DNA from: Treponema sp.
GTDB taxonomy: Bacteria; Spirochaetota; Spirochaetia; Treponematales; Treponemataceae
Direction: 5' to 3'
DNA length: 64,000 bases
NCBI GenBank assembly: GCA_016286365.1
Contig: JAEESN010000004.1
Location: 1 to 64,000, forward strand
A program made the translations under genes and the position numbers. The notes beneath the pieces are model-generated. The model had not been told where the DNA came from. It ran no database searches and saw nothing but the letters and a program-made list of their open reading frames with translations. Shown one piece after another: positions 9,816 to 14,673 of the stretch (position 1 is the first letter of the stretch; the number at the start of each line of letters is the position of its first letter).

Positions 9816-9921
9816 TTTTCTTTTTCTCCAAATATTAAATCATATAAGTGTATCTATATTAATGAAAATAGGCAATTTCGTCAATGGAAGTAGGATACAT
9901 GCATTTAAATATAAAAAAAGC
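9808..9921. repeat. secG leader forming the left arm of a long inverted duplication
   Basis: Read on the minus strand, 9921 to 9808 begins GCTTTTTTTATATTT and goes through ACTTCCATTG, GATACACTT and GAGAAAAAGAAAAATGAGT, the last piece being the secG ribosome site and start. The same blocks occur in the same order on the plus strand at 10021-10128 and again at 10262-10367, with small gaps. The two arms therefore form a long imperfect inverted repeat around the hairpin centred near 9966. Confidence 0.75.
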
Positions 9922-10381
9922 TTCCACTGCGCATTCCATAAAGTCCGGGCTAAGGGTAGCGCCGCTTGTAGTGCTAGCTCGCCCAGACCTTAGATGGACT
10001 TTATGGCCTGCTCCGTTCACGCTTTTTTTATATTTGCTGCGTGTTATAACTTCCATTGCGGCATTACACTGTTTCTTTTTTGGATACATTTGTTTTATAG
10101 AGAAAAAGAAAATGAGTGGGGGGCGTGAAAAGGAGGCGTGCGTTTAAATATAAAAAAAGGCTTCCACTGCACATCACAGAAGGTCCTAGGCTAAGGGTAG
10201 TGCCGCTTGTAGTGCTAGCTCGCCCAAACCTTAGATGGACCTTCTGCGCTGTTCCGTTCACGCCTTTTTTTATATTTGCTGCATGTGTAAAATTTCCATT
10301 GCGGCATTACACTGTTTTTTTTAGATACACTTGTTTTATAGAGAAAAAGAAAATGAGTGGGGGGCGTAAAAAGGAGGCGTG
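9904..10381 (+). repeat. two tandem 239-base units, each with a long covarying hairpin
   Basis: The unit beginning at 9904 recurs at 10143. Each unit has an outer stem (9907-9921 with 10021-10035; 10146-10161 with 10262-10277), an inner stem (9936-9946 with 9996-10006; 10177-10186 with 10237-10246), then CTAAGG/CCTTAG and a conserved centre containing GCCGCTTGTAGTGCTAGCTC. The stems differ between units but stay paired: 9939 T to G with A to C on the other side, 9942 A to G with T to C, and one inserted G-C pair in the outer stem. Each unit ends with a stretch resembling the secG ribosome site and start. No protein-coding gene is credible in the 743-base gap 9816-10558. Confidence 0.85.
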
Positions 10382-10408: not shown

Positions 10409-10446
10409 AAAAAAAACTCAGGGGCAAGCGAAAAGGCAGGCCCCTG
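10409..10446 (-). terminator. rho-independent terminator of tpiA
   Basis: On the minus strand the stem CAGGGGC (10446-10440) pairs with GCCCCTG (10425-10419), a 14-base loop lies between, and AG plus a T8 run follows (10416-10409). It sits 113 bases after the tpiA stop, beyond the duplicated tpiA end. Confidence 0.8.
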
Positions 10447-10580
10447 CAAAACGGGTAGTTATAATACACAAATAGGTACACAGGCTGCGATTGGCCCTAG
10501 GATTGCGAGCGGGCGAGCAATCACGCAGCCTGCCGTTTTGCCCCTGCAAAACGGGTGGTTATAATACACAAATAGGTACA
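10441..10580. repeat. 40-base direct repeat of the tpiA 3' end around a 60-base palindromic insert
   Basis: Bases 10441-10480 and 10541-10580 are identical except for one base (10457 A, 10557 G). The second copy holds the last seven codons and stop of tpiA plus the start of its terminator stem; the first is a non-coding duplicate. The 60 bases between them (10481-10540) contain an imperfect palindrome, CAGGCTGCGATTG at 10481-10493 with CAATCACGCAGCCTG at 10518-10532, and CCGTTTTG that pairs with CAAAACGG of the first repeat. Confidence 0.85.
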
Positions 10581-11426: not shown

Positions 11427-11457
11427 TTGCATTATCACAAAAGCGTGTTATTATAAA
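11427..11457 (+). promoter_or_regulatory. promoter of orphan ncRNA
   Basis: TTGCAT (11427-11432) and TATTAT (11449-11454) are 16 bases apart; an overlapping TATAAA (11452-11457) is an alternative -10. The expected +1 is 11461-11464, just where the first stem of the predicted RNA begins. It points away from tpiA. Confidence 0.55.
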
Positions 11458-11460
11458 GTT

Positions 11461-11662
11461 GTAGCAAGGAACGAGATGAGGACGTAAACCGGCTACTTGA
11501 CGGGAGGCAATATGCAATTTCCGACAAAAATAATTAGCGTGTCGACGCTATAATACGCGAGACAACACAGCATCCAGTGGCTTACAACTGGGACATTTAT
11601 AGTGCCAGTCATTCGCTGACTGATAGCACATTACAGGGCACCGAACAAGGTGCCTTTTTTTT
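11461..11662 (+). ncRNA. structured ncRNA of unknown family
   Basis: A ~200-base transcript is predicted in the 405-base gap between tpiA and cysK, opposite in direction to both. It has a promoter, no convincing reading frame, several hairpins and a strong terminator. Stems seen: GTAGC 11461-11465 with GCTAC 11492-11496; CGC/GCG with flanking GTGTC/GAC pairing around 11539-11567; CCAGT with ACTGG (about 11574-11591); GTGCCAGTCA 11602-11611 with TGACTG and GCAC 11617-11629 around a TTCGC loop. It does not show the hallmarks of tmRNA, the SRP RNA tetraloop domain or RNase P. A 6S-like RNA cannot be excluded. Function unknown; the absence of a downstream gene on this strand argues against a cis riboswitch. 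Confidence 0.6.
11637..11662 (+). terminator. rho-independent terminator of the ncRNA
   Basis: GGCACC (11637-11642) pairs with GGTGCC (11649-11654) across GAACAA, followed by a T8 run. The minus strand lacks a T run after the stem, so it acts on plus-strand transcripts. Confidence 0.85.
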
Positions 11663-11713
11663 GTCCAAAACGGATTTCTGAAATTTGTGATTCTGCCAAC
11701 CGATTCAAACTGA

Positions 11714-12655
11714 TTAAAACTCAACGTCTTCGTCAAAAAGAGGAGTACTAAAGTATCTTTCTGCTGTATCGGGTAAAACAGTTACGACAGTTTTTCCAGG
11801 ACCAAGAGCCTTTGCAAGTTCTAAAGCAGCAGCAACATTTGTTCCCGAAGAAATACCACACATGATTCCTTCTTTTCTTGCAAGATCACGACTTGTCTTG
11901 ATTGCCTGAGCATCTGTTACGATAAAAATATCATCATAAATTTCACGGTTTAAAATCGGAGGGATGAGTCCGTCTCCAATTCCCATCTGAAGATGAGTAC
12001 CGACAGAGCCACCACTCAATAAAGCAGCATGAGCCGGTTCAACAGCCCAGATTGTGATTTCCGGATTTTTTTCTTTAAGAACTTCGCCGATTCCCGTAAG
12101 AGTTCCACCTGTTCCGATTCCAGAACAAAAACCGTCTATAGGACAATCAGCATCTTCGAGGATTTCGATAGCAGTTGATTTTCTCTGGATTTCAGGATTT
12201 GCTGGATTTTCAAACTGCTGCGGAATATAAACATGAGGATCCATGTGCTGCATATAAAAAGCAGTATCAATACATTCCTGAATACATTTACCTATGTCTC
12301 CGTTATCGTGGATGAGTTTAACTTCGGCACCATAATGCTTAACGATTTTTCTGCGTTCTTCGCTTACACTGTCTGGCATGATGATGATTGTTTTATAACC
12401 ACGAACCGCTCCAACCAGAGCAAGCCCGATTCCCTGATTTCCGCTTGTCGGTTCAACAATGACAGAATTTTTATCAAGGAGGCCTTTCTTTTCTGCTTCG
12501 ATAATCATGTTGTAAGCAGTACGAGTTTTGATTGAACCACCAACGTTGAGTCCTTCGAATTTTACAAGGACGCGAGCCATGTCGGGGGTAACCATTTTTT
12601 GAAGTTGAATAAGAGGAGTATGTCCAATCGCATCAAGAATGTTGTTATAGATCAT
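11714..12655 (-). CDS. cysK: cysteine synthase A (O-acetylserine sulfhydrylase)
   Basis: A 313-residue PLP enzyme that makes cysteine from O-acetylserine and sulfide. The PLP lysine is in GGSIKTRTA, the substrate loop is PTSGNQGIGLA, and the phosphate loop is GIGTGGTLTGIG. Length and motifs fit CysK/CysM; the usual loop in CysK proteins is GNTG, here GNQG. No Shine-Dalgarno is present; a TATACT box ends six bases ahead of the ATG on the minus strand, so a leaderless mRNA is likely. A large hairpin lies immediately upstream of this promoter. Confidence 0.95.
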   Translation of the reverse strand: MIYNNILDAIGHTPLIQLQKMVTPDMARVLVKFEGLNVGGSIKTRTAYNMIIEAEKKGLLDKNSVIVEPTSGNQGIGLALVGAVRGYKTIIIMPDSVSEERRKIVKHYGAEVKLIHDNGDIGKCIQECIDTAFYMQHMDPHVYIPQQFENPANPEIQRKSTAIEILEDADCPIDGFCSGIGTGGTLTGIGEVLKEKNPEITIWAVEPAHAALLSGGSVGTHLQMGIGDGLIPPILNREIYDDIFIVTDAQAIKTSRDLARKEGIMCGISSGTNVAAALELAKALGPGKTVVTVLPDTAERYFSTPLFDEDVEF

Positions 12656-12661
12656 GTGGAT

Positions 12662-12667
12662 AGTATA
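12662..12667 (-). promoter_or_regulatory. cysK -10 box (leaderless arrangement)
   Basis: TATACT on the minus strand (12667-12662) is separated from the cysK ATG by six bases (12661-12656). No ribosome-binding site fits between them and no strong -35 is seen. Confidence 0.5.
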
Positions 12668-12697
12668 TATCTTTTTGGATATTTATTAAATATATCT

Positions 12698-12783
12698 TGA
12701 GGGCGAGGCCTTCCGTTGGAAAACATAGAGGGCAACTAAAAACACGTTGCCCTCCATGTTTTCCAAATCCGGCTTCGCCCTCA
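12698..12783. repeat. long hairpin with TAAAAACAC loop
   Basis: Three perfect stem blocks, TGAGGGCGA (12698-12706 with 12775-12783), TTGGAAAACAT (12716-12726 with 12756-12766) and GAGGGCAAC (12728-12736 with 12746-12754), close on the nine-base loop TAAAAACAC (12737-12745). The loop is the reverse complement of the loop at 13327-13335, where the stems are different. It lies between cysK and the tandem repeats. Confidence 0.85.
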
Positions 12784-12824
12784 CATTACTTCACCAAAAA
12801 AGAATAAAAATACATCCTTTCTTA

Positions 12825-13170
12825 GATCTATAACAACTTCTCGATCTTCCGCGTGGGGGGGGACGTGCAAACTGGAAAAAAACACGGTGACCTCCCCTAT
12901 TTTCTACTCCGGTCTCACCCTCAAGATAATCTCATCTGTAAAAAATATAAAACATCCTTCTTGATCTATAACAACCGTCTCGATCTCCCGCGTGGAGGAG
13001 ACGTGCAAATTAAAAAACACGTTGCCCCACGTGATTTACTACTCCACCCTACCCCTCAAGATAATCTCATCTGAAAAAATATAAAACATCCCTTCCCTGA
13101 TCTATAACAACCGTCTCGATCTCCCGCGTGAAGGGGATGTGGGAACTAAAAAAAACACATTGCAACACGT
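12825..13170. repeat. three direct repeats of 136-138 bases containing degenerate hairpins
   Basis: GATCTATAACAAC occurs at 12825, 12963 and 13099, each followed by CTCGATCT(T/C)CCGCGTG, a G-rich stretch, then a degenerate form of the hairpin core (for example ACGTGCAAATT, AAAAAACAC, GTTGCCCCACGT in the middle unit) and, in the first two, CTCAAGATAATCTCATCTG. The third unit is cut short. The region 12656-13401 (746 bases) otherwise holds no credible gene. Confidence 0.8.
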
Positions 13171-13287
13171 GAAAGAGACATGGATAATTTGGAAAAACGA
13201 TGTTTCCCAAAAATGCATCCCTCCCTGCGAGCCCTCCCCCTCGGGACAGTTGCAGCGAATTATTTTTTTCACACTGCAAATACCGTG

Positions 13288-13375
13288 AACAGACTGTGTT
13301 CGGAGTAAAAAAATGAGGGGGTCAACGTGTTTTTAGTTGACCCCCTCATTTTTTTACGGGAGAACACAGTCTGTT
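13288..13375. terminator. very stable hairpin, likely bidirectional terminator of pgk, same loop family
   Basis: A 22-base perfect stem (13305-13326 with 13336-13357) and an outer 14-base stem (13288-13301 with 13362-13375) enclose the loop GTGTTTTTA (13327-13335). The inner stem carries CAT7AC on the 3' side of both strands, so on either strand a GC-rich stem is followed by a T7 run. It lies 26 bases beyond the pgk stop. Loop and adjacent CAAC/GTTG pairs match the hairpin at 12698-12783 in inverted orientation. Confidence 0.75.
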
Positions 13376-13401
13376 ATATGATATAACATCTGTGAAAAAA
13401 A

Positions 13402-14673
13402 TTATTTTGTTGCAAGGATTGCTATGCCCGGCAATGTCTTTCCTTCAAGAAGTTCAAGTGATGCACCACCACCAGTAGAAACGTGGCTCATCTTAGAAGC
13501 GAGGTTGAACTTGTTTACGGCGGCAACTGAATCTCCACCACCTACAACTGTCATTGCACCTCTGCCTGTTGCTTCTGCTACGAGTTTTGCAACAGTTTCT
13601 GTTCCCTTAGCAAATGCATCGAATTCGAATACTCCAACAGGACCATTCCATACGATTGATTTTGCTTCGGAAATTGCTTTCTTGTATTCTTCTACAGTTT
13701 TTGGACCAACATCCATAGCCATTACATCAGCTGGGATATCGATTCCGTCTACAGCAACTGGTTTTGCATCAGCAGAGAATTCTGCAGCAGCAACGTGGTC
13801 TACAGGAAGAAGAATCTTAACTCCCTTAGCTTCTGCTTCAGAAAGGAGTTTTTTAGCAGTATCGATAAAATCATCTTCTACAAGTGATTTACCAACGCTG
13901 TGTCCCTGTGCCTTTAAGAATGTATATGCCATACCACCACCGATTACGAGGTAAGCAGCATTTTTCAAAAGTGATTCAAGAACGGCAATCTTAGAAGAAA
14001 CCTTAGCTCCACCAATAATTGCAACCATTGGTTTTGGAGGGTTTGTTACCATTGGTTCAAGATACTTAACTTCTTTTTCCATTAAGAATCCGCCAACTGG
14101 CTGTGTGCTCATGAATTTAGCGATTGTAGCTGTAGAAGCCTGATCACGATGAGCTGTACCGAAAGCATCGTTTACAAAGATATCTCCGTATGTTGCAAGT
14201 TCTTTTGCCATTGATTCGCGTTCTGCATCGTCCTTAGAAGTTTCTTCTTTGTGGAAGCGAACGTTTTCGAGCATTGCTACTCCGCCTTCTGGAAGAGCAT
14301 CAATTGCTGATTTTGCACCGAGTGCATCTGGAATAAATGTAACATCCTTTCCAAGTTTTTCTGAAAAATATTTTACTACAGGAGCCATGCGGTTTTTACC
14401 GTTGATGAACTTTTCTGCATCAGCATCTGTCCATGTTTTACCAGCTTTTTCAGCTTTTTCCTGAGCCTTTTTAACATCCTTTTTAGGATCTCCAAGATGG
14501 CTCATCAAAACTAATGAACGTGGATTCTGTTCAAGAATGTACTTGATTGTTGGAAGTGCAGCCATGATACGTGTATCATCCTGAACAACTCCGTCCTTCA
14601 TAGGAACGTTAAAATCAACGCGCATAATAATGCGTTTACCTTTAAGATCTACATCTTTTACTGTCTTGATCAT
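13402..14673 (-). CDS. pgk: phosphoglycerate kinase
   Basis: A 423-residue glycolytic kinase that moves the acyl phosphate of 1,3-bisphosphoglycerate to ADP. Recognisable parts: [40 protein letters not shown], and the nucleotide site WNGPVGVFE and GGGDSVAAV. It is slightly longer than the usual 390-415 residues because of a Lys-rich insertion at about residues 63-90 between SHLGDP and the MAPVVKYF helix. AGGAG precedes the ATG, and the leader has a small CGCAG/CTGCG hairpin. The downstream stable hairpin probably terminates its transcript. Confidence 0.97.

Follow-up and report, generated by a model that had tools for sequence, protein, structure and literature searches.

Hairpins with a shared tip and site-specific arms lie between genes in one clade of Treponema

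The window analysed here comprises the first 64,000 nucleotides of contig JAEESN010000004.1 (forward strand) from the Treponema sp. assembly GCA_016286365.1. Between cysK, which encodes cysteine synthase A, and pgk, which encodes phosphoglycerate kinase, it contains two long hairpins, here called A1 and A2, which are separated by a tandem array (Table 1). An earlier note on the window had placed two hairpins at the positions listed as outer stems in Table 1, with a nine-base loop in common, opposite orientations and three degenerate cores between them. All of these features were recovered, and the degenerate cores turned out to be parts of the tandem array. The limits given for the hairpins were too narrow, because both extend to the outermost palindromes (the limits of the first being approximate).

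Table 1. Positions of the hairpins, their parts and the neighbouring genes in the window
Feature	Position	Strand	Remarks
cysK (cysteine synthase A), left neighbour	11714..12655	-	
cysK codons 1-7	12632..12654	-	inverted copies at 12825-12837, 12962-12984 and 13098-13120
A1, core and 6 bp of outer stem	12705..12776	-	GGA orientation on - strand
A1 loop GTGTTTTTA	12737..12745	-	
A1 inner stem S1 with loop	12716..12766		arms 12716-12736 / 12746-12766
A1 junction, TTCCG side	12711..12715		opposite side ATCC at 12767-12770
A1 outer stem S2 with contents	12698..12783		arms 12698-12710 / 12771-12783
A1 outermost palindrome S3	12663..12813		arms about 12663-12678 / 12794-12813
Tandem array	12799..13153		unit 136-140 bp; three degenerate element cores inside
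A2, core and 6 bp of outer stem	13296..13367	+	GGA orientation on + strand
A2 loop GTGTTTTTA	13327..13335	+	
A2 inner stem S1 with loop	13305..13357		arms 13305-13326 / 13336-13357, 22 perfect pairs
A2 junction, GGA side	13302..13304	+	GGGA at 13358-13361
A2 outer stem S2 with contents	13288..13375		arms 13288-13301 / 13362-13375
A2 outermost palindrome S3	13250..13415		right arm includes last pgk codons (13402-13415)
pgk (phosphoglycerate kinase), right neighbour	13402..14673	-	

Other repeats and hairpins lie at lower positions in the same window. Two tandem 241-bp copies at 9886-10381 belong to another family of long hairpins with the core GGCTAAGGGTAGCGCCGCTTG..CTCGCCCAAACCTTAG, which has similar TTCC/TCCG junctions and further copies with different stems at C21:49736 and C19:83646. 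A 41-nt direct repeat (10440-10480 and 10540-10580, 97.6% identical) surrounds a strong hairpin, and its right copy enters the 3' end of tpiA. The gap between tpiA and cysK includes an unannotated stretch (11430-11665) that ends in GGGCACCGAACAAGGTGCCTTTTTTTT and is a candidate small RNA gene; it gave no Rfam match at the gathering threshold.

The stems of A1 and A2 had been described as otherwise different from each other and nearly perfectly complementary within each hairpin. The complementarity stands, but the stems are not unrelated, as A1 and A2 can be aligned gaplessly along 72 nt. A third hairpin of the same genome, on contig C22, can be added to give a gapless 72-column alignment in which 16 of the 28 pairs are changed on both sides, 95.2% of cells are paired on the implied structure and a single cell is G.T. 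Shuffled and slid structures fell far below the observed pairing values, in a small sample of three sequences.

About 740 kb of the source genome was inspected directly, stretch by stretch, and the remainder was covered by searching. The complete 2.68-Mb sequence has three occurrences of the motif CAAC+GTGTTTTTA+GTTG, all of them within hairpins, and the window holds three matches to it at up to three mismatches where 0.25 would be expected. The 17-mer CAACGTGTTTTTAGTTG has two copies in the window and one on C22, where a long hairpin likewise has it at its tip. The loop therefore recurs in hairpins elsewhere in the genome, and the proposal passed the check set for it in the earlier note, which a loop confined to this locus would have failed. 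The exact 17-mer is absent from all other genomes in a genus sample of 146 that includes the source genome, one of which carries it with a single mismatch; as a widespread motif it was rejected, since exact matches in other phyla are scattered singles. A simple scan for enrichment of the triplet junction returned very few matches.

A covariance model built from the three hairpins found at least three further copies in the source genome, on C1, C17 and C3 (E values from 3e-14 to 4e-8, one of them 2e-12). All six copies have the loop GTGTTTT(T)A, and one of them, the C17 copy, has a degenerate junction. A further match at C5:42181 (E 7e-4) resembles an ordinary terminator and was set aside. Across the genus, the model matched 32 of 196 sampled genomes at E<=0.01, although several of the weaker single matches are plain hairpins. 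Genomes with matches often have at least 8-10 among those listed, and these copy numbers are lower bounds, given that scoring covered 25 candidates per genome. Outside the genus, four matches in other genera were inspected and proved to be plain hairpins without the junction, and a single IMG/VR match was unconvincing as a phage-borne element. The hairpins are a previously unlisted family of nested intergenic palindromes from one clade of the genus, and the earlier idea of a conserved loop on interchangeable stems holds across that clade.

A set of 83 model matches was extracted. Their layout runs from an outer stem through C, GGA, a GT-foot, an A-tract and a variable stem to the tip, and then through the matching stem, a T-tract, AC, GGGA and G into the other side of the outer stem. 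The GGA/GGGA junction is unpaired, and the stem sequence is free to vary across the family. Of 76 anchored copies, 61 carry GGAG at the 5' junction and 62 carry GGGA at the 3' one; the C-G closing pair is found in all 76, but was required by the anchoring. The pattern CGGAGTN{40,60}ACGGGAG has 5-10 matches in each of nine genomes (G019, G199, G202, G181, G008, G026, G097, G112 and G105), compared with 0-1 for the reversed pattern in the same genomes. The core measures 58-64 nt, and the median length of the outer stem S2 is 15 bp. A third nested palindrome that scores higher than 95% of mismatched left/right controls is present in 58 of 75 copies. Most copies consist of three nested palindromes spanning about 160-190 bp (median rod length 190 bp in copies with a clear third palindrome). 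Another family in the same genome (L031:17912, L039:2599 and L041:1279) has the same junction and a near-identical loop, GTGTTTTA.

The history of the tip differs from that of the arms. Tips of copies in the same genome have a similarity of 0.76, compared with 0.71 for copies at orthologous places and 0.62 for copies from other genomes and places; for S2, the corresponding values are 0.40, 0.72 and 0.41. Therefore, the tip is either common to the copies of a genome or homogenised among them, whereas the outer arms go with the site. In the obgE copies of G112 and G164, the left flank and S2 are identical but S1 has been replaced. The S3 arms also differ among the copies compared by eye. Each element combines a family-wide tip and GGA/GGGA junction with arms that are unique to its site and near-perfectly complementary.

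The adjacent genes point to where some of the arms came from. Inverted copies of the cysK start are located beyond the hairpin palindromes, the left arm of the outermost A2 palindrome pairs with the last pgk codons, and in the congener G105 the hsp20 codons KHIAIE are copied inverted in the rod, with a second inverted copy close by. Both coding ends at the present locus appear conserved, as MIYNNIL is found in the cysK of G019 and LATK* in the pgk of G202, and therefore the non-coding arm is taken to be the new one. Of 54 copies with a clear third palindrome, 26 have the outer arm within a mechanically called neighbouring ORF at just one flank, 9 have this at both flanks and 19 at neither. Judged by the letters, one outermost arm is in clear cases an inverted copy of the adjacent coding end, and the copying of arms from neighbouring DNA, as read from these matches, is well supported.

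Arrays occur elsewhere too. At L039 2450-3000 and L031 8680-9200, half-unit arrays with TCCC/TCCG motifs end in one complete hairpin and look as if a palindrome had been repeatedly extended. A relative without the element, G001, has a tandem array of roughly 130 bp shortly after the pgk stop (L083).

Taken together, we lean towards the view that these elements are REP-like DNA palindromes. In this view, the tip with its junction would be copied to new sites within a genome, or homogenised between sites there, and template-switch (fold-back) synthesis would produce and repair the arms. Folding back of the growing strand, or a change of template at the hairpin, would create the arms, lengthen them and restore the match between them. 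A whole stem could then change in one event yet remain paired. Template switching has been argued to be able both to create and to maintain hairpins (PMC8794818). However, template switching alone does not account for the conserved junction and loop, and this implies that they are recognised or under selection. The mismatches at the junction and the A/T tracts might be kept because they aid recognition or make the palindrome tolerable to the cell, and it is possible that a putative protein recognises the loop or the GGA/GGGA junction. More tentatively, the tip itself may be mobile, being moved by an enzyme other than a Y1 HUH transposase, with the outer arms built from flanking DNA by fold-back; if this less probable version were true, the palindrome would be unique at every site.

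Alternatively, the element might act at the RNA level, either as an intrinsic terminator that works in both directions or as a structured 3' UTR, with stems that drift in a compensatory manner under selection for pairing. A transition within a base pair yields G.T or A.C equally, and selection on RNA should retain G.T. The mismatches comprise 33 G.T and 33 A.C, in a small sample where a single column accounts for 12 of the A.C cells, and it therefore seems that something other than RNA pairing is maintained. In favour of an RNA role, S1 has an A-tract, a GC-rich stem and a T-tract on both strands, many S2 arms resemble A8..GCC/GGC..T8, and elements are enriched between convergent genes: 26 of 72 are convergent, 33 co-directional and 13 divergent, compared with 23, 119 and 64 of 206 baseline intergenic gaps. 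However, those 13 elements between divergent genes, the patchy presence at a given site, arms that copy coding sequence and a GGA/GGGA junction that a terminator does not need all argue against it. Rfam 15 likewise gave no match for the window and only sub-threshold microRNA-type matches for the element. We consider an RNA-level explanation unlikely, although S1, which looks like a two-way intrinsic terminator, may have a termination role alongside an origin at the DNA level. A simple terminator scan, limited to loops of 3-8, did not call A1 or A2.

Patchiness is most evident upstream of obgE, where the element is present in 4 of 19 clade copies, in four lineages, and four changes are needed on the tree. 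This site changes often, although insertion and loss are not separable by this pattern alone. Flanking direct repeats were found at 9 of 74 copies compared with 3.7 expected, a weak excess, with no clear target duplications among the 74 copies checked, and no insertion event was found between near-identical strains. A short hairpin cassette that inserts into the loops of pre-existing hairpins, so that the outer arms are the target, would account for site-specific outer arms and for tips common within a genome, and REPs located inside target palindromes are known (PMC3733652). However, no matching palindrome was found at the element-free obgE sites with readable sequence, and some outermost arms are inverted coding ends. 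Such cassette insertion is accordingly rather improbable.

It was also proposed that an HUH/RAYT-type nuclease accompanies the hairpins, and REP-like elements mobilised by a Y1 HUH (RAYT/IS200-type) transposase would fit the hairpin foot, whose GGAG, sometimes GTAG, resembles REP tags (PMC2817692), as well as the one RAYT-like gene of the source genome. However, that sole gene (L081 1375-2220; NF047646, below the cut-off) is surrounded by a different repeat, hairpins of the GACAAGGGGGACAACCCTCGATG type, and in a search of 30 genomes with the Pfam model Y1_Tnp no Y1 gene was found in 11 of 14 congeners with model matches. One of these is G105, which is 99% complete and has at least eight model matches. 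The Y1 route is not supported, and this explanation is very unlikely, being largely refuted. In G105, a gene between two elements was considered as an autonomous form and rejected, as it encodes a CDP-alcohol phosphatidyltransferase. Least credible of all is an assembly or amplification artefact producing inverted chimeras, since, although several copies lie near contig ends of fragmented assemblies, others are internal to long contigs (C13, 152 kb; G105 contigs, 289-405 kb) and independent assemblies share copies at orthologous positions.

Several known systems resemble these elements in part. REPs are imperfect intergenic palindromes found preferentially at the 3' ends of genes and between convergent ones (PMC3733652), and the present elements share with REP/BIME/REPIN sequences of the GTAG and CGTC superfamilies these features and an unpaired foot motif. 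By contrast, REPs are 20-40 bp long and have a high copy number and a shared stem, whereas here a longer core carries long site-specific arms with GGA/GGGA on both sides, the copy number is low (the exact pattern yields at most about 10 copies per genome), S2 is unrelated between copies, and most carriers have no RAYT; an unpaired GTAG stands at the foot in 5 of 76 copies, against the predominant GGAG. MITEs are also short, non-coding, bounded by inverted repeats and patchy per site, but they have conserved terminal inverted repeats, whereas S2, being site-specific, differs in every copy. Intrinsic terminators share the A-tract, GC stem and T-tract of S1 and a frequent position downstream of genes, although they differ from the nested stems, the conserved junction and tip, and the occurrence between divergent genes seen here. 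Template-switch hairpins have perfect stems that appear and change as blocks through inverted copying of sequence nearby (Monttinen and Loytynoja 2022, PMC8794818), as these do, but here a single tip with its junction is found again and again at different sites and appears homogenised within each genome.

The template-switch explanation bears on an open question, namely how long and perfect hairpins form and keep their pairing as the sequence evolves. With many copies that have a tip in common, site-specific arms, orthologous pairs and element-free sites, this family makes that explanation directly testable. Compensatory change alone is no proof of a functional RNA, and these elements would be natural records of how DNA hairpins originate and are rewritten.
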